Assembly (NCBI GenBank): GCA_020073305.1
Contig: JAIQFK010000005.1
Location: 248,001 to 312,000, forward strand
DNA from: Terriglobia bacterium
GTDB taxonomy: Bacteria; Acidobacteriota; Terriglobia; Bryobacterales; Bryobacteraceae
Direction of reading: 5' to 3'
Length of the DNA: 64,000 bases
The position numbers and the translations under genes are program-made. How positions within the stretch are numbered: the stretch's first letter is position 1; each line of letters opens with the position of its first letter. A model generated the notes under the pieces. That model was not told the origin of the DNA and searched no databases. It saw only the letters and a list, made by a program, of their open reading frames with translations. This document shows, piece after piece, positions 22,945 to 33,998 of the stretch.

Positions 22945-23030
22945 CCGCTCGGTTTGTTCAGGCTGTCTCGATCGTGTGGCAGCCAACTAACACCCAGCTC
23001 CGGCGCACGTCCAAGATTCAGGAGTAACTT

Positions 23031-24902
23031 GTGTTTCAGAACAAGTCCGCGCGCTTTCACTTGACATGCCACATCGTTGCATTTGCCGTGATCTTTGCGT
23101 TGCCTGTCGCAGGCCAGGAGGCTGCGTCGCAGATTAAGGCTGAGATCCAACGTCTGCAGCAGTCTCTCAAGGACAGGCCCATCTCAGATCCGGACTTCCC
23201 CGACGTCAATTCCATGATTGAAGGCGAACTCAAAGCAGCCGCCGAAGCACTCAACGCCGCATGGCTGTACTTGAGTCTGGAAAAGCTGGGCGGGGCCGCC
23301 GACCTTCTCCACGGCGCAAGGGTGGTCGCAGACAAGAAAGCGGAGACGGTGAAGGGCGGGTTGCCCGCGTATGAGGCTGAATGGAAGAAAGTGAGCGTGA
23401 GCCTCAACGCGCGTGATCAGGAGGCCCGCGGGATAGACTGGAGCCATGCACCGGCGGCCATCCGGGCGTTGTCCGAGACAGCGCAGGGTAAGAGCCAACC
23501 GCTGCTCGAAGGGGGCCGGGGCTTTGCCACTTCGACCCAGCCGAAGGACGGGCTCTTCTATCTCGGCCAGGCGCAGGGAGAAGCCGAATTCGCTCAGTTC
23601 TGCACTTCCTTGCATCTCCCTCGAAAAGCGAGACCGTTGCCGCGGCGCTCGCTAGTGCCGGAACTGCAAGGTCTCCAAGACAAGACCAACGCCGCCTTTG
23701 TGCCGCCGCGTTCCATTGAACTCCATCCCCGATTCATCGCACTCAATTCGACGCTCAAGCTGGCGCAGGAACTCGATGCGGCAAGGTTCTATTCCGGGGC
23801 TCTGTACCAGTACCTGGAGGCGGTGCGGCACTATGGGATGCTTGACGCCACCGCGCCCGATAGCACCAGACAATCTGCTTTGAAAGATGCCGTCGCGGGC
23901 ATGCGAAAGAAGCTGGATGTCTCCGCGAGCGACGACTCCATCGCCCAGATCTTCGTGGAACGCGCGGCGTCGCAGGTGGCGCACGCGGACGGCTCCGCTC
24001 CCGGCACAGACGAATGGAAAAGCGCTCAGGTCATCATCGATCAGGTCCTGCCCGCCTATTTCAACGCGCAGAAACCAGCCTCTCCTCTGCAGCGGGCATC
24101 GGGCAAGACTGTCGATATCACGCTGGTGCGCTGGCCCTACACCTGAAACATCTCCGACCCGGCAAGTTTGCTGGTACAAGAAGTGGCAGCCAGGTATTCG
24201 GGAAGAGTGACCTTTGTCAGCGAGAACTTCGGAGCGTCCAAGCTAGCCGACCAGTTTGGCGTGAAAGGATATCCGGCGGTTTTCGTGGACGACGTGCTGG
24301 TTGCCGCCCCCAGGGACTTCGGCTATTTCGGAGAAGTAGAAGGCACGGGCCGCTATGCTCCGTGGCGCAATGCCGACAGCCAGACAAAGTTCAAGACGGA
24401 TCTCACCCGCATGATTGACCTGATCCTGGCGGGCAAGAAAGACGTGGTGAGCCGCAAACACGCGGGCGCCAGCAGCGGGTTCACCGAAATTGCGACTCTC
24501 CCCAGGTTCACTCTGTCCGATCTTTCCGGGCACCCCATCACGGCAGACCAGCTTTCCGGGCGCGTGGTGATGGTTGAGTTTTGGGCCACATGGTGCCCGC
24601 CCTGCCGCTCCACGCTCGACTGGCTGGGAGAACTGAAGCAGAAGTACGGCGACAACCTCGCCATTCTGGCCCTGGCCGTGGAATCGCCCGAAGACCAGAT
24701 ACGATCCACCGCAGCCTCGCTGAGCCCCGATCTGCACTGGGCCATCACCGATGCCCCGACCGCGCGGGCTTTCGGTGACATCACCGCCGTACCCACCCTG
24801 TTTCTGTTTGAACGCTCGGGAAAGACCGCGCGTGTGCTGTACGGCGCGCCGCCCGACCTGCACGAGCAGGTCACAAAGATTCTGGACGCGTTGATCCAGT
24901 AG
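23031..24902 (+). CDS. Candidate selenoprotein: tandem thioredoxin-fold protein with in-frame TGA (UxxS) and TlpA-type CPPC domain
   Basis: Read as one frame the gene gives 623 residues, with one internal TGA at 24144-24146 (position 372). It starts at a GTG 6 bases after AGGAG and has a signal peptide (HIVAFAVIFALPVAGQ), so it acts outside the cytoplasm. Residues about 30-350 are helical without a recognised domain. Then comes a thioredoxin fold: strand VDITLVRWPYT, the TGA, NIS, helix LLVQEVAARYSG, strand RVTFVSENFG, and cis-proline region GVKGYPAVFVDD. The TGA falls where the attacking cysteine of CxxC belongs, giving U372-N-I-S375. A second TlpA-like domain has WCPPC (C522, C525) and ends at 24902. 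A hairpin fitting the bacterial SECIS rules follows the TGA. The alternative is a pseudogene or two separate genes; no selA, selB, selD or tRNA-Sec gene is in this window. Confidence 0.75.
24159..24174 (+). promoter_or_regulatory. Candidate bacterial SECIS hairpin
   Basis: Downstream of the TGA at 24144-24146 the RNA can fold into a 6-bp stem (CCGGCA with UGCUGG, one G-U pair) closed by the tetraloop AGUU at 24165-24168. The loop begins 18 bases after the UGA and has G as its second base. Bacterial SECIS models ask for an apical loop roughly 16-37 bases after the UGA with a G in the first two loop positions, so both conditions are met. SelB would bind here to deliver selenocysteine. Seen by eye; folding energy not computed. 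Confidence 0.6.
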
Positions 24903-24918: not shown

Positions 24919-26742
24919 ATGCTACGCTCTAGCCTGAGAATGTTTCGGGCGATTGGCGTCGTGCTTCTCCTCGCGGCGGGAACCGGGGCGCGGCAAATGG
25001 ATGTCGGGGCCGTGGTGCTGGTGAACTCGCTGGCGCCGGACTACTCGGACTTTTCGGGAATCCTTGAACCGTACCTCGTTCATTTTGGAATCCCGTACTC
25101 GGTCCGCGATGTCTCTCAGCCGAACGCGTTCGTTGGCCTTGACGACTGCTCACTTGTGATCGTGGGTCACCGCGGGCTGGATGCGCCGCGCCGATTCATT
25201 ACCTCCGAGCATGAGGCGTCGCTCGTTGCTGCCATCAAGCATGGCACGGGACTGGTCAGTTTCGACGGCCTCCTTGCCAAGTGGGAGGGAAAGGACGCTG
25301 AGCCGATTTACTCCTACCCACGGGACATCTTAGGGCTGCTCTACGGAAAGGCCGGCGAGGCATCAGAGATTGCGATCGGCCTGGACGGCGCACATTACAT
25401 CGCGAATCAACGGGCAGTGCCGCGGACCGTGAAGCTCAAGGCCCCGATGCACGTTCCCGGCCTGAGACCGGGTGAGGGTGTGCGGGTGGTGGCGCGCGCG
25501 GGAGACGCACCGCTTGTCCTCGCAACACAGCTCGGCGAGGGCCGCGCGGTATTGTTCGCCTCGTATGACTGGGTGCGGCCGGAGATCAAGGGCAGGTTCT
25601 ACGGCCTGGATGATCTGGTATGGCGAGCACTTGTTTGGGCGGCGCGGAAACCATTCGTCATTCGCGGAATGCCCAAATTTCTTGCGCTTCGCGTGGACGA
25701 CGTCTCGGGATTTGGTATCGGCGCAAATCAGCACCTCGGTTGGATCGAGACCGCCAACCGGTACGGGCTGAAGCCGTGGGTGGGTGTGTTCATCGATGAC
25801 CTGCGCGAGGATCCTGTGGCTGTGCGCCGTCTGGCGAACCTGACGCAGCATGGCCTGGCCACGGCTTCCGTACACGCACGCCGCTGGAGGAAGTTTTTCT
25901 ACCTCGACGAACCGCTCGCAACCGACGACTTGAACAGAAACATCGCTGCCACGCCGTGGTCCGCGGAGAAGATGGCGGCGAACTGGGCCGAGGCCGAGAG
26001 GTTCTTCAAGGAAAATGGCATCGTCAAGTCCAGGCTGATCTTGCCGCACTTCTACGAATTCGCGCCAAATAACTTCGATGGCCTCAACCATTGGGGAGCG
26101 GATCTGGTGGGCACCGTCCTCGAACCGGGGCAAGGTTACGGAACACGGATGCCGAACGCGGGACCGTATCTGACGAACGAGACGCGGTCCTCAAATGGCG
26201 CCGACCCCATTTTCATCGCCGACTGGCTCAAAGTGCCGGGCCACCCGGAGTTCAATCACCAGTTCTTCAACTTCATCGCCGAAGTACGGGATGTCACCGG
26301 ATATGAATGGGCGCCCAGCGGCGTGCCCGTCGAAGAGGCCATCCGCCGTGGAGTCGAAGAGTCACGCCGGGAGTTCGACAGTCAGCTTCCTGCCGTGCTG
26401 TTCACGCATGAGTCCGACCATATCCAGCACCTTACGCCCGAAGCCTGGGAGCGCATTCTTGCGGGCGTCATGCGTGAGCTGAAAGAAGACGCCCCCATTC
26501 CTGTGACCCTGGATTTCGTTGGCCAGTATCTGCGCGCGCTGCATACGTCGCATATCCGGAGCGCACGCTATGACCCTGCCACCCGCGAAGGCGTCGTTGA
26601 AATCACGGGCACCAGCGACATCGCAACCGAGTTGTTCGTCTTCGAGGACGACACTAAATCGCCACGTGTACTCGAGGCGCCAGCCACGGGTCGTGTTAGC
26701 GAGGTCCGATGGGCTGCCGCTACTCTACCGGGTGCTCGCTGA
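24919..26742 (+). CDS. Exported polysaccharide-deacetylase-like protein
   Basis: 607 residues with an N-terminal signal segment (RMFRAIGVVLLLAAGTGA). The first third (about 25-230) resembles a glutamine-amidotransferase-like or ThuA-like Rossmann domain (VVLVNSLAPDYSDFSGIL, LVIVGHRGLDAP, GHGTGL-type turn at KHGTGLVSF). The middle third begins FLALRVDDVSGFG, the double-aspartate start typical of NodB/deacetylase-like barrels, with later histidines in SVHARRW, LPHFYEF and FTHESDHIQHL that could bind a metal. The exact substrate is unknown. It begins 16 bases after the candidate selenoprotein and may share its transcript. The last 23 bases overlap the end of the convergent hydrolase gene. Confidence 0.72.
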   Translation: MLRSSLRMFRAIGVVLLLAAGTGARQMDVGAVVLVNSLAPDYSDFSGILEPYLVHFGIPYSVRDVSQPNAFVGLDDCSLVIVGHRGLDAPRRFITSEHEASLVAAIKHGTGLVSFDGLLAKWEGKDAEPIYSYPRDILGLLYGKAGEASEIAIGLDGAHYIANQRAVPRTVKLKAPMHVPGLRPGEGVRVVARAGDAPLVLATQLGEGRAVLFASYDWVRPEIKGRFYGLDDLVWRALVWAARKPFVIRGMPKFLALRVDDVSGFGIGANQHLGWIETANRYGLKPWVGVFIDDLREDPVAVRRLANLTQHGLATASVHARRWRKFFYLDEPLATDDLNRNIAATPWSAEKMAANWAEAERFFKENGIVKSRLILPHFYEFAPNNFDGLNHWGADLVGTVLEPGQGYGTRMPNAGPYLTNETRSSNGADPIFIADWLKVPGHPEFNHQFFNFIAEVRDVTGYEWAPSGVPVEEAIRRGVEESRREFDSQLPAVLFTHESDHIQHLTPEAWERILAGVMRELKEDAPIPVTLDFVGQYLRALHTSHIRSARYDPATREGVVEITGTSDIATELFVFEDDTKSPRVLEAPATGRVSEVRWAAATLPGAR

Positions 26743-28666: not shown

Positions 28667-28710
28667 GAGAAGATGATTCTCTCACTGTTGGGGGCCCTGG
28701 TGATCCTGTG

Positions 28711-30498
28711 ATGCCGGCGCGTCAAGCCTTCGCGATTTTCTGTCTCTTGTTTCTCCTGGGCCTCGGCACCATGGCGGCCTGGCAAGCCACTCACGACACG
28801 CCGGGAAATTTCACCGACATCACGGCGGCCAGCGGCGTCCGTTTCCAGCACGTGGCGTCGCACACATCCCGGAAGTACCTGCCTGAGACGATGGGGTCGG
28901 GCGTGGCGCTGGTCGACTATGACAACGACGGCCGCCTCGACACCTTCCTGGTGAATGGAGCGCCTCTCGCCGATCCCACACCCAAAGGGACGATCCCGGA
29001 GAAAACGGGGCCGAAGCACTGGAACCGCCTCTTTCACCAGAAAAGCGACGGGACCTTCGAGGACGTGACGGAGAAGGCGGGGCTGCAGGGGACCGGCTAC
29101 GGAATGGGCGTTGCGGTGGGCGACTATGACAACGATGGTTTTGAAGACCTCTACGTGACTGCCTATGGCGGCAACAAGCTCTATCACAACAATGGCGATG
29201 GCACGTTCGCGGACGTGACGGCGCAGGCGGGCGCGGGCGGCAGCGGCTGGTCAACCGGCGCGGCCTGGGTGGATCTGGATAACGACGGGCTGCTGGATCT
29301 GGTGGTGCTGCGCTATCTGCAATGGGACTTCGACGACATCTGGTGTGGAGAACACAAGGAAGGCTTTCGTGCCTATTGCCACCCCGATACGTTCCGGGGC
29401 ATTGCGCCTCTGGTCTATCACAACAATGGCGACGGCCGGTTCACCGAAGTCGGGCAGAAGACCGGTCTGGCCATTCCGGGCAAGGGCCTGGGCATTGCCC
29501 TCGCGGATTACGATGGCGATGGCCACATCGACCTCTTCGTTGCCAACGATTCGATGCCCGAATTCCTGTTCCACAACAAAGGGGATGGCACGTTCGAAGA
29601 AAGAGGTCTGCTCGCGCAAGTTGCCGTGGACGAAGATGGCCGCACCTACGCCGGCATGGGCGTGGACTTTGAAGACTTCAACAACGACGGACTTCCGGAC
29701 CTGGTGGTGGATAACCTGGCCAACCAGATGTACGCGATTTATCAAAACGCCGGCGACGGCACGTTTACTTACACCACCCGGGGGTCCGGCATCGGCCGCA
29801 TGACGATGCTGCACTCCGGGTGGGGGCTCCGGCTGATCGACTACGACAATGACGGCTGGAAGGATCTGCTGATCGCGCAAGGGCACGACCTGGACACCAT
29901 CGATCTGACGAATCCTCAACTGCACTACCGCGAGCCGATGTTGCTGGCGCGGAATACCGGACATGGTTTCGTGGATGTCTCGGCGGCGTCGGGCAGCATC
30001 TTTCATGAAGCGTGGGCGGGCCGCGGGCTGGCCACTGGAGACATCGACAACGACGGACGCATTGACGCGGTGGTGTCCACCAATGACGGGCCGGCGCACG
30101 TGATTCGCAACGAAACGAAGACGGACAACCACTGGCTGACTCTCAAACTGGTGGGCCACAAGAGCAACCGCGATGCGATCGGCTCTGCCGTGAAGATTGT
30201 TACAGCGAAGGGCGCGCAATACGCGACGGTCACGACGGCGAGCAGCTACCTTTCCTCGAGCGACAAGCGAGTCCACTTCGGCCTTGGAGACGAGGCCGCC
30301 GTCCGGACGCTTGAAATCCGCTGGCCGAGCGGTATTCATCAGGTGCTGAAGGACGTCCGCGCCGACCAGTTTCTGCAGGTGGATGAACCGGCGACGACGC
30401 AGAGGAGTGCCGCGTGTGCCGTCAGCGCTTCGATGGCATGTATGGCACGAAACCTCGCGCCTTCGTCCTCAGTTGGTAAACCGAGGTCGTCGCCGTGA
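28711..30498 (+). CDS. Exported FG-GAP/VCBS repeat protein with ASPIC/UnbV C-terminal domain
   Basis: About 595 residues. An N-terminal hydrophobic segment (FAIFCLLFLLGLGTMAAW) serves as signal or anchor. Six or more calcium-binding propeller repeats follow, with the pattern DYDNDGRLDTFLVNG, DYDNDGFEDLYVTAYG, DLDNDGLLDLVVL, DYDGDGHIDLFVAND and DIDNDGRIDAVVS. The ASPIC/UnbV domain is at about 465-550 (WLTLKLVGHKSNRDAIGSAVKI, HFGLGDEAAVRTLEIRWPSG). Such proteins are abundant in acidobacteria and planctomycetes and are thought to be extracellular binding proteins. The last ~30 residues are unlike the family and overlap the convergent SMP-30 gene by 77 bases, so a lost original stop is possible. 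A GTG at 28708 directly precedes the chosen ATG. Confidence 0.85.
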   Translation: MPARQAFAIFCLLFLLGLGTMAAWQATHDTPGNFTDITAASGVRFQHVASHTSRKYLPETMGSGVALVDYDNDGRLDTFLVNGAPLADPTPKGTIPEKTGPKHWNRLFHQKSDGTFEDVTEKAGLQGTGYGMGVAVGDYDNDGFEDLYVTAYGGNKLYHNNGDGTFADVTAQAGAGGSGWSTGAAWVDLDNDGLLDLVVLRYLQWDFDDIWCGEHKEGFRAYCHPDTFRGIAPLVYHNNGDGRFTEVGQKTGLAIPGKGLGIALADYDGDGHIDLFVANDSMPEFLFHNKGDGTFEERGLLAQVAVDEDGRTYAGMGVDFEDFNNDGLPDLVVDNLANQMYAIYQNAGDGTFTYTTRGSGIGRMTMLHSGWGLRLIDYDNDGWKDLLIAQGHDLDTIDLTNPQLHYREPMLLARNTGHGFVDVSAASGSIFHEAWAGRGLATGDIDNDGRIDAVVSTNDGPAHVIRNETKTDNHWLTLKLVGHKSNRDAIGSAVKIVTAKGAQYATVTTASSYLSSSDKRVHFGLGDEAAVRTLEIRWPSGIHQVLKDVRADQFLQVDEPATTQRSAACAVSASMACMARNLAPSSSVGKPRSSP

Positions 30499-31408: not shown

Positions 31409-31529
31409 TGTGGTCCCTTGGAGTTTATCAGGTGGTTTGGATACATCTTCAGAACTTTTGCGAACTTTTGCCATTGCCGAGCGTATCATTCCGTAGATCG
31501 CCATAAGCTTGGCCATCGGAGAGTGGACC

Positions 31530-33998
31530 ATGGGATCTTTCCGCATGCAAACGAGGCACGTGGTACGCAGGCTGATGCGATCGCCGATGTTCACGGCGAT
31601 CACGCTGCTCACCCTGGCGATCGGCATCGGCGCCAACACCGCGATATTCAGTGTCCTGGAGGGGGTCCTTCTCCAACCGCTCCCCTACCCCAATCCCGAC
31701 CAGCTCATCGGCGTGTGGGAAACGGCTCCAGGCGTAGGTATGCCGGAAGTGAACGCGTCGCCCGCAACCTACTTCACTTTCCGCGAGGAGAACCGGACCT
31801 TCCAGGACACAGGCCTTTGGCGCAGCGATTCGGTGAGCGTTACGGGCCTGGCTGAGCCCGAACAGGTGGATGCGCTGGAAGTGACCGGCGGCACCCTGCC
31901 GATCCTGGGCGTGCAGCCCATCCGCGGACGCTGGTTCACGCGCAAGGACGATTCACCTGGCAGTCCGCAGACGATGATGCTGGCGTACGGATACTGGCAG
32001 CGCAGATTCGGCGGCGACCCGTCGGTGATCGGCCGAAGAATTACGATCGATGGAAGCGCCCGGGAACTCATCGGCATCATGCCGCAGAGTTTCCGCTTCA
32101 TGAATCGCAACCCGGCGGTCATCCTGCCGTTCCAGCTCAACCGCAACGATGCCTTTATCGGTAATTTCAGCTACCAGAGCATCGCACGGCTCAAGCCCGG
32201 AGTGACGCTCGCGCAGGCCAACGCGGATGTCGCGCGGATGATCCCGCTGATGTCCCAGAAGTTCCGCCCAGCTCCCGGGATGAGTCTCGAGATGTTCTCG
32301 CAGGCGCGGTTTGGTCCAAATCTGCGGCCGTTGATGCAGGACGTAGTCGGAGACATTGGAAAAGTGTTGTGGGTGCTGATGGGGACGGTCGGCATTGTGC
32401 TATTCATCGCCTGCGCCAACGTAGCCAACTTGCTCCTGGTCAGAGCTGAGGGGCGCCAGCAGGAACTCGCCATCCGCGGGGCCCTTGGAGCGAGCCGGCC
32501 GCAGATCGCCGGTGAACTCCTGCTGGAGAGCGTGACTCTCGGGCTGGTGGGCGGCACGCTCGGGGTGGGACTCGCCTACGCCGCGCTCCGATTGCTGGTG
32601 GCCATTGGGCCATCGAATCTCCCACGGCTCGATGAAATTTCGATCGACCAGCCGGTCCTGCTTTTCGCGCTGGCCGTCTCCGTGGTGGCCGGACTCCTGT
32701 TCGGCCTGATTCCGGTGTTTAAGTATGCGGGAGCGCAACTGGGCGCCGCCCTCCGGCAGGGAGGCCGTACGTTGAGTGAGGGCCGGGAACGTCACCGCGC
32801 GCGCAGCGTCCTGGTCGTCGTGCAGGTTGCCCTGGCTCTGGTTCTGCTGGTCAGTTCGGGGCTCATGATTCGTACCGTGCGGGCGCTCAGGCAGGTCCAG
32901 CCCGGGTTTACGCAGCCGGAACAGATCCTGACGCTGCACGTCTCCATTCCGGATGCGCAGGCGCCGAAACCCGAACAGGTCGTCCGCATTTACAACGACA
33001 TGATCGAGCGTATCTTGGCGATTCCGGGAGTTACCTCGGCAGGCCTCTCCAACTCCATCACCATGGATGGATACAACGATAATGATCCCATTTTTGCGGA
33101 AGACCATGTTTACTCCGAAAGGACGATACCGCCCTTGCGCCGGTTCAAGTTCGTTTCTCCCGGCTTGTTCAAAACCATGGGCAATCCCCTGCTGGCGGGC
33201 CGCGATCTGACATGGACGGACGTCTATGAGAAGCGCCCGGTCATTCTGATTTCCGAGAACCTGGCGCGCGAACTATGGCCGGCTCCCGCAGCCGCGCTCG
33301 GCAAGCGGGTCCGCGAAAACCCGAAGGCGTCATGGCGCGAAATCGTCGGCGTGGTGGGGAACGAGCGCGACGACGGCGTTCATCAGAAAGCTCCAACCAT
33401 CGCGTACTGGCCAATGATGGTGAAGGACTTTTGGGGTGAACCCGTCATGGCACAAAGAGGTCTGGCTTTCGCCGTCCGCAGCAGTCGAGCCGGCTCCGCC
33501 AGCTTCCTCAAGGAAATCCAGCGAGCGGTTTGGTCAGTGAATCCGGATCTTCCGATTGCGGACGTTCACACGGTGAAAGAAATCTACGACCGTTCCATGG
33601 TACGAACATCGTTCACGCTGGTGATGCTCACTATCGCGGCTGGGATGGCGCTGCTGCTCGGTGTGGTCGGCATCTACGGGGTCATTTCGTATTCCGTGTC
33701 GCAGAGGACCCGGGAGATTGGGATACGCATCGCCCTTGGTGCACCGCAGCAAACGGTGCGGCAGATGTTCGTTCGCCACGGACTCCTGCTTGCGGGGATC
33801 GGCCTCATGTGCGGACTCGGCGCGGCGTTGGCGCTCACTCGCTTGATGTCCGCACTCCTGTTCAACGTCAGCCCGCTCGATCCGATGACGTACGGCGCCG
33901 TGTCCCTCGTCCTGTTCGCGGCGGCTTTTCTGGCGAGTTACATTCCCGCTCATCGGGCGACGGCGATCTCGCCGCTGGATGCGCTACGAGCAGAGTAA
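31530..33998 (+). CDS. ABC-type permease, acidobacterial duplicated orphan permease family
   Basis: 822 residues from the ATG at 31530, which has GGAG 8 bases before it. Two copies of the MacB/FtsX-type permease unit: the first starts RRLMRSPMFTAITLLTLAIGIGANTAIFSV, has a MacB-type periplasmic domain and helices near VLWVLMGTVGIVLFIACANVANLLLVR; the second ends with LTIAAGMALLLGVVGIYGVISYSVSQRTREIGIRIALGA and a C-terminal PLDALRAE. This is the layout of the family named from Acidobacteria (TIGR03434), which occurs in many copies without an adjacent ATPase. No ATP-binding gene is next to it here. Substrate unknown; lipoprotein, peptide or antibiotic export is typical for MacB relatives. Confidence 0.92.
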   Translation: MGSFRMQTRHVVRRLMRSPMFTAITLLTLAIGIGANTAIFSVLEGVLLQPLPYPNPDQLIGVWETAPGVGMPEVNASPATYFTFREENRTFQDTGLWRSDSVSVTGLAEPEQVDALEVTGGTLPILGVQPIRGRWFTRKDDSPGSPQTMMLAYGYWQRRFGGDPSVIGRRITIDGSARELIGIMPQSFRFMNRNPAVILPFQLNRNDAFIGNFSYQSIARLKPGVTLAQANADVARMIPLMSQKFRPAPGMSLEMFSQARFGPNLRPLMQDVVGDIGKVLWVLMGTVGIVLFIACANVANLLLVRAEGRQQELAIRGALGASRPQIAGELLLESVTLGLVGGTLGVGLAYAALRLLVAIGPSNLPRLDEISIDQPVLLFALAVSVVAGLLFGLIPVFKYAGAQLGAALRQGGRTLSEGRERHRARSVLVVVQVALALVLLVSSGLMIRTVRALRQVQPGFTQPEQILTLHVSIPDAQAPKPEQVVRIYNDMIERILAIPGVTSAGLSNSITMDGYNDNDPIFAEDHVYSERTIPPLRRFKFVSPGLFKTMGNPLLAGRDLTWTDVYEKRPVILISENLARELWPAPAAALGKRVRENPKASWREIVGVVGNERDDGVHQKAPTIAYWPMMVKDFWGEPVMAQRGLAFAVRSSRAGSASFLKEIQRAVWSVNPDLPIADVHTVKEIYDRSMVRTSFTLVMLTIAAGMALLLGVVGIYGVISYSVSQRTREIGIRIALGAPQQTVRQMFVRHGLLLAGIGLMCGLGAALALTRLMSALLFNVSPLDPMTYGAVSLVLFAAAFLASYIPAHRATAISPLDALRAE

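Follow-up and report, generated by a model that had tools for sequence, protein, structure and literature searches.

A probable selenocysteine UGA in a thioredoxin-fold domain joined to a TlpA-type domain in a Terriglobia bacterium

Introduction

The protein disulfide oxidoreductase PDO, which has two thioredoxin-fold domains in one chain, bears a likeness to the protein described here. Its model, TIGR02187, matched the domain that carries the candidate selenocysteine (Sec domain) weakly, with 11.9 to 14 bits versus a cutoff of 185; however, the two redox domains of our protein are of different types, and a helical domain is added to them. For their part, the thioredoxin and thiol:disulfide interchange selenoproteins listed in Table 1 of PMC13188914 (UxxC; PF00085, PF13098, and cd02966) have the same fold and place Sec at the nucleophilic, CxxC-like position. 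They differ from the present family in that the third residue after the Sec site is here Ser in 26 of 28 loci with TGA, that the Sec domain matches neither PF00085 nor PF13098, and that a separate TlpA domain with a CPPC motif follows it. A ResA/TlpA-like domain is also common to the WAxxUGC TlpA/ResA-like selenoproteins (NF041054; the cd02966 UGC row of the same table is comparable). Judging by its name, NF041054 has Sec in the TlpA-type domain, whereas here that domain keeps CPPC and Sec would lie in the domain upstream; the model gave 28.5 bits with our TlpA part, far below its cutoff of 300.

As far as the descriptions, rather than the sequences, in Table 1 of PMC13188914 allow comparison, none of its rows (119 selenoprotein families, 2026) describes the family, although a UxxC relative may lie behind the row "Redoxin family protein, PF08534, UxxC". 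Going by their names, the nine new families of deep-Sep (PMC12013277) are different ones, and a text search of the literature outside supplementary tables, motif letters included, found no such family among the papers listed. Thus, with no fitting NCBIfam or Pfam model and no table row, this appears to be a selenoprotein of the thioredoxin fold whose domain and layout are unlisted, and the family is apparently unlisted among known selenoproteins. The locus lies in a 64,000-nucleotide stretch of a Terriglobia assembly (the window, meaning the whole stretch analysed). If the UGA were not read, the gene would appear as a truncated helical protein plus an orphan TlpA fragment.

Results and Discussion

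Reading frame and domains of the product

A sequence-only reading of the window had proposed that the frame from 23031 to 24902 is broken only by a TGA, that this codon lies at the redox site of a thioredoxin fold as part of a UxxS motif, and that a TlpA-like domain with CPPC follows in the same frame. All three proposals were borne out. Translation through the TGA, which is the sole interruption of the open frame, gave 623 residues, with this single TGA as residue 372 and TAG at the end, and the sequence around the site reads VDITLVRWPYT-U-NIS-DPASLL. The coordinates of the features are collected in Table 1.

Table 1. Features of the candidate selenoprotein gene (positions in the window)
Feature	Position	Strand	Evidence or remarks
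Predicted selenoprotein gene	23031..24902	+	623 codons before TAG, UGA = codon 372; homologues with same TGA
Shine-Dalgarno-like AGGAG	23020..23024	+	6 nt before GTG start 23031; from sequence
Signal-peptide-like N terminus, hydrophobic stretch ending ..ALPVAGQE	23031..23117	+	Sequence, by eye
N-terminal all-helical domain, residues about 27-346	23109..24068	+	Predicted structure; without Pfam match
Sec thioredoxin-fold domain, residues about 358-468	24102..24434	+	Predicted structure
Predicted UGA codon for selenocysteine (U372), first position of UxxS	24144..24146	+	TGA in 28/29 distinct loci
SECIS-type hairpin CCGGCA-AGUU-UGCUGG, six pairs, tetraloop 24165-24168	24159..24174	+	Folding and alignment
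Tyr-Pro of GYPAVFV motif	24270..24275	+	Invariant in 14/14 rows of alignment
C-terminal TlpA/ResA-like domain, residues about 489-623	24495..24899	+	Pfam and structure comparison
CPPC redox motif of TlpA domain	24594..24605	+	From sequence

In the AlphaFold model of the Sec domain (pLDDT 84.9, pTM 0.80), a thioredoxin fold of order beta-alpha-beta-alpha-beta-beta-alpha is predicted; U sits in the loop that joins strand 1 to helix 1, the active site thus standing before helix 1, and a Pro precedes strand 3. The Tyr-Pro of the GYPAVFV motif we take, by knowledge of the fold, to be the thioredoxin cis-Pro position, the cis state being putative. Structure comparison with VIA-align gave as the best match a designed thioredoxin (7q3j; Z 9.4, rmsd 2.8, 83 aligned), although three rows tie at the top (9.4, 8.7, and 8.6), at little more than the level that the tool calls common; the matches listed were mostly thioredoxins or protein disulfide isomerases. 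Foldseek found no PDB match at E <= 0.001 (best E, 1.2e-3), and the Sec-domain profile found none convincing among PDB sequences (best E, 0.039, thioredoxin 3tco).

The Sec domains of 14 members, scanned alone, matched no thioredoxin family of Pfam or NCBIfam over its curated cutoff. The best Pfam E value was 0.015 (Thioredoxin_3, in 3 members), and the best in NCBIfam 20.0 was 0.023, from an unrelated model. The Sec domain of the window itself had zero Pfam matches at E <= 1 and only one NCBIfam match, at 11.9 bits versus a cutoff of 185. Likewise, Pfam gave no match to the N-terminal helical part, also when residues 24 to 350 were scanned alone.

The C-terminal domain, for its part, was over the Pfam cutoff with PF00578 (AhpC-TSA), PF08534 (Redoxin), PF00085 (Thioredoxin), and PF13905, and reached VIA Z values of 20.0 with 3gl3 (a DsbE-like protein) and 18.4 with ResA (1su9). 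With an AhpC-TSA/Redoxin profile over the cutoff plus a WCxxC motif, it is of the TlpA/ResA-like type. The full-length model (pLDDT 84.4, pTM 0.77) had an all-helical part at residues 27 to 346, then the Sec domain, and then the TlpA domain, the last of which accounted for all the matches listed in the full-length structure comparison. pLDDT was below 50 at residues 5 to 27, in the signal-peptide-like region.

The earlier description of the product as a tandem U/C periplasmic redox protein therefore holds for the Sec and CPPC domains, but the product is better described as three parts, namely, a helical domain, a Sec thioredoxin domain (mostly UxxS in the family), and a TlpA domain with CPPC; its periplasmic element corresponds to a signal-peptide-like N terminus. 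Judging from signal-like N termini and from the lipobox-like context around a Cys in those of two relatives (L079 and L080), both seen by eye, the product is probably exported.

Relatives and conservation of the TGA

The sequence-only reading had called for a comparison of homologues at position 372. Thirty-one loci were tabulated, 29 of them distinct (L069 and L079 duplicate L051 and L058), and the relatives shared the motif [LMV]VRWP[YF]T-U-xx[S/C]-D. The codon at the Sec site was TGA in 28 of the 29 distinct loci and TGC in the remaining one, from Armatimonadetes (L078, at L078:4052). Its conservation across 28 of 29 related loci indicates that the TGA is not due to chance. The residue at +3 in the 28 TGA loci was Ser in 26 and Cys in 2. 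Of the 28 loci complete over the 99 residues after the Sec site, 26 have no other Cys there; the other two are the UxxC members. The WCxxC motif of the TlpA domain was present in 28 of the 29 distinct loci; the exception, L019, is truncated by a contig end.

A search with the whole protein in 101 genomes, its own included, gave strong matches in two others, both with TGA: L018, full length at 40%, and L019, at 56% but truncated by the contig end. In the other genomes the best match had an E value of 2.7e-20 or weaker, and among the matches listed the start was at residue 440 or later. In two genomes of the window's genus, the best matches began at residues 484 and 440, past the Sec site; the gene is thus patchy. 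Residues 1 to 470 identified 16 carriers among 396 genomes of the phylum, each match running across the site with one TGA. A hidden Markov model of the Sec domain, in which U was entered as Cys so that Cys forms were not disfavoured, found the same 16 of 396 phylum genomes and 9 of 399 class genomes, again with one TGA in each match. Two carriers, the window's genome and G354, belonged to both draws, and five further class carriers (L187 to L191) stand outside the 29 distinct loci. Finally, a scan of GTDB contigs, from which 80 loci were kept, yielded at least 13 loci with the Sec domain: ten of Acidobacteriota type (Acidobacteria, Terriglobia, Vicinamibacteria, and Thermoanaerobaculia), two from Planctomycetota, and one from Armatimonadetes.

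Four Nitrospirota loci (L081 to L084) were rejected as relatives, as they encode TlpA proteins without the Sec domain, and a loose motif scan in six frames (L085 to L147) gave no Sec-domain relative and one chance match (L096, TCG codon). Among plasmids, 45 records matched the full protein, none over 80% of the query; the 20 matches listed lay in the TlpA part, none of them beginning before residue 446.

The three parts are not always fused. In L057 and L059 to L062 a signal-like stretch is followed by the Sec domain, which thus begins near the N terminus of a short Sec-thioredoxin-TlpA protein; the helical domain is encoded just upstream by a separate gene with its own stop (L063 to L067). 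L072 and L073 look like these split forms. The existence of both fused and split forms suggests that the helical, Sec, and TlpA parts work together. Furthermore, TGA serves as an ordinary stop in carriers, for example, in the separate helical genes of L064 to L067, so the genetic code is not recoded throughout.

Selenocysteine machinery

Whether the genome holds selA, selB, selD, and tRNA-Sec had been put forward as a check on the proposal, and all four were found in the window's assembly (6.98 Mb, 51 contigs; completeness rated at 99.89% and contamination at 4.96%). The tRNA-Sec, with anticodon TCA, lies at C34:29416-29507 (76.5 bits), and selA, selB, and selD lie on C3 (508 bits), C16 (359 bits), and C36 (368 bits), respectively. 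These contigs are other than that of the window (C22), and their origin from one organism is assumed. The selD gene has an in-frame TGA of its own (L155:1531, G000:C36) in the N-terminal motif HVKAAGUASKLSP; thus, this gene too appears to be Sec-decoded, the second such in the assembly, and SelD itself is probably a selenoprotein. A second match to the tRNA-Sec model (L002, G000:C26:106305-106392) scored 48 bits against a gathering threshold of 47 and may be a tRNA with a long arm, for example, one for Ser or Leu.

Using a cutoff of E <= 1e-60, selB was detected in 256 of the 396 phylum genomes and in 16 of the 16 carriers (hypergeometric 8e-4, kinship ignored). Of 15 genomes in which other relatives lie, G493 and G503 appear to be the assemblies also numbered G318 and G383; selB was over the cutoff in 14 of the 15, the exception being G494 (locus L070). 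The genome of the Armatimonadetes relative (G502) still has selB, so that the single Cys form among the 29 distinct loci comes from a genome with this gene.

A SECIS-type hairpin downstream of the UGA

A SECIS element had been expected between 24147 and 24190, and a SECIS-type stem-loop conserved among the TGA loci was indeed present there, starting 12 nt after the UGA. The criteria given for a bSECIS in PMC13188914 are a stem of 4 to 16 bp, a loop of 3 to 9 nt with G in its first two places, a distance of 16 to 37 nt from the UGA, and an MFE of <= -7.5; the loop mostly has flanking letters that pair. The window agrees with all four, with 6 bp, an AGUU tetraloop (G second), 18 nt, and an MFE of -8.2 kcal/mol (34 nt).

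RNAalifold found the hairpin unprompted, at columns 16-21/26-31, in an alignment of 21 of the 30 TGA loci, in which L051 and L058 were represented by their duplicates. Over the 21 rows, 99.3% of the cells were paired, the 22/25 pair included, versus at most 50% when the partners were slid. Pair 22/25 was A-U in 14 rows and G-C in 7, and pair 18/29 was G-U or A-U. In the 28 distinct TGA loci, all of which keep the hairpin, its 16 nt vary only at the third position (G/A), at the loop pair 22/25, and at the final base, where L057 and L059 have A and so lose the outer pair. The hairpin is gone in the Cys relative, which has no SECIS-like loop.

The E. coli fdhF SECIS shares with this element the spacing from UGA to loop, 17 nt in both (the fdhF letters were checked), and its apical CAGGUCUG is common to 9 of the 28 TGA loci. 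The apical loop CAGGTCTG of fdhF occurs in these nine (loop AGGUCU), and CAAGTTTG occurs in the other 19 (AAGUUU). The window, in contrast to fdhF, has CAAGUUUG and a weaker fold (MFE of -8.3 versus -13.1 kcal/mol for the first 40 nt).

Codon usage pointed the same way. In 27 Sec rows, from which L019 (contig end), L069, and L079 (duplicates) were left out, the Ala codon at +6 was always GCA, versus 9% of the Ala codons in the alignment, and the Leu codon at +9 was always CTG, versus 46% of the Leu codons; at +8, Leu was encoded by TTG in 18 rows and by CTG in the other 9. In the Cys relative, the codons at +6, +8, and +9 are GCG, CTG, and CTT, respectively. At the predicted hairpin, codons are conserved beyond what the protein sequence demands, the grouped test being modest (5 columns versus 60; Mann-Whitney p 0.03). 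Other signals spoke against the hairpin. Its region in the window folds no better than many shuffles (48 nt, z -0.65, 43 of 200 as good; 34 nt, z -1.40, 19 of 200 as good), and covariation is thin, with four of the six stem pairs invariant, one pair lost in 1 of 21 rows, and only 22/25 changing on both sides; the RNAalifold covariation term was -0.2, and two-sided pair changes were no more numerous than in shuffles (483 of 500). Rfam gave no match over gathering thresholds in the window, and at 24100 to 24260 three chance-level matches at E values of 4 to 9.

Alternative readings and proposed mechanism

Taken together, the conserved codon, its context, and the machinery make it very nearly certain, as a prediction from genome sequences, that the UGA is decoded as selenocysteine. 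Were it a true stop, the locus would hold a 371-residue helical protein (23031 to 24146) and a separate TlpA-type gene starting, for example, at TTG 24168. Mechanically delimited ORFs do exist at 23031 to 24146 and 24168 to 24902, the helical domain is a separate gene in L063 to L067, and a GGGAAGA stands right before a GTG at 24207, though too close for a usual Shine-Dalgarno sequence. However, a start at 24168 would cut out strand 1 and the active site, and the other in-frame starts listed up to 24447 have no clear Shine-Dalgarno sequence by eye. Moreover, the split relatives break before the Sec domain and keep the Sec TGA inside the downstream gene, and the Cys relative reads straight through, all of which makes termination a very improbable account. 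A pseudogene or a sequencing error, which could likewise leave a lone in-frame stop in one assembly, deserves even less credence and is practically negligible: it is refuted by 28 distinct loci that have the same TGA, with conserved protein sequence before and after it, in the phylum and class of the window and in Acidobacteriota-type and Planctomycetota records. It also seems unlikely that the UGA doubles as a selenium-controlled switch that would give the free helical domain at low selenium and the full redox protein when selenium is present. Sec decoding is stated to compete with termination (PMC4513850), and the relatives with a separate helical gene indicate that this domain can stand alone, but the free helical product would have an additional strand, from the Sec domain, attached to it.

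With the UGA read as selenocysteine, the function of the Sec domain is less certain. A peroxidase-like or a metal- or organometal-binding site instead of a disulfide reductase, with the TlpA domain merely supplying electrons or acting alone, is a genuine if somewhat doubtful possibility. The UxxS motif of 26 of the 28 TGA loci, without the resolving Cys of dithiol thioredoxins, would suit such a site, and UxxS is found in some peroxiredoxin-like and arsenate-reductase-type selenoproteins in the table of PMC13188914. The model, on the other hand, is a plain thioredoxin fold in which the cis-Pro position still holds its Pro, and models of peroxiredoxins and arsenate reductases failed to match the Sec domain in any of 14 members.

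As we envisage selenocysteine decoding, SelB and Sec-tRNA would read the UGA under the direction of the hairpin, placing Sec at the nucleophile position, where the selenolate would attack a disulfide or a peroxide outside the cytoplasm. Because 26 of the 28 TGA loci have Ser at +3 and otherwise lack Cys in the Sec domain, resolving the oxidised selenium would take a thiol from elsewhere, for which the CPPC of the tethered TlpA domain would be the simplest donor. The TlpA domain, in turn, could be recharged by a DsbD/CcdA-type electron carrier; membrane carriers of this type recharge ResA/TlpA-type proteins. One DsbD_TM match (100.8 bits), without link to the window, was found in the assembly. 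The helical domain may bind a partner.

An intramolecular relay in which the TlpA domain re-reduces the Sec domain has, in our estimate, somewhat less than an even chance. We put forward more tentatively the broader view of a family that keeps selenium nearly everywhere, with a lone UxxS selenol recharged in cis by the TlpA domain in an exported relay whose helical arm chooses the target. It is unusual for a single chain, here probably an exported one, to unite a Sec domain with a CPPC domain, and this points to selenium use outside the cytoplasm in Planctomycetota and in the phylum of the window, with selB in 256 of 396 sampled genomes. L078 and its Sec relatives are a natural Sec-to-Cys pair, and such rare Cys forms offer a clean test of why Sec is kept.

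Gene neighbourhood

No operon partner was conserved among the 31 loci (the window plus 30, two of them duplicates), using ORFs of at least 100 amino acids and BLASTP at E < 1e-8. In the window the neighbours include a TPP enzyme and a beta-propeller protein. Sixteen nucleotides past the stop of the gene lies a 607-residue frame (24919 to 26742), which had no Pfam match at E <= 0.01 and was not found beside the relatives examined. Further on, 28708 to 30498 encodes an FG-GAP repeat protein with an ASPIC/UnbV domain. The only neighbour type common to several loci resembles the MacB/FtsX permease encoded at 31509 to 33998; similar frames occur near five other carriers, and, as their positions vary, they look incidental.
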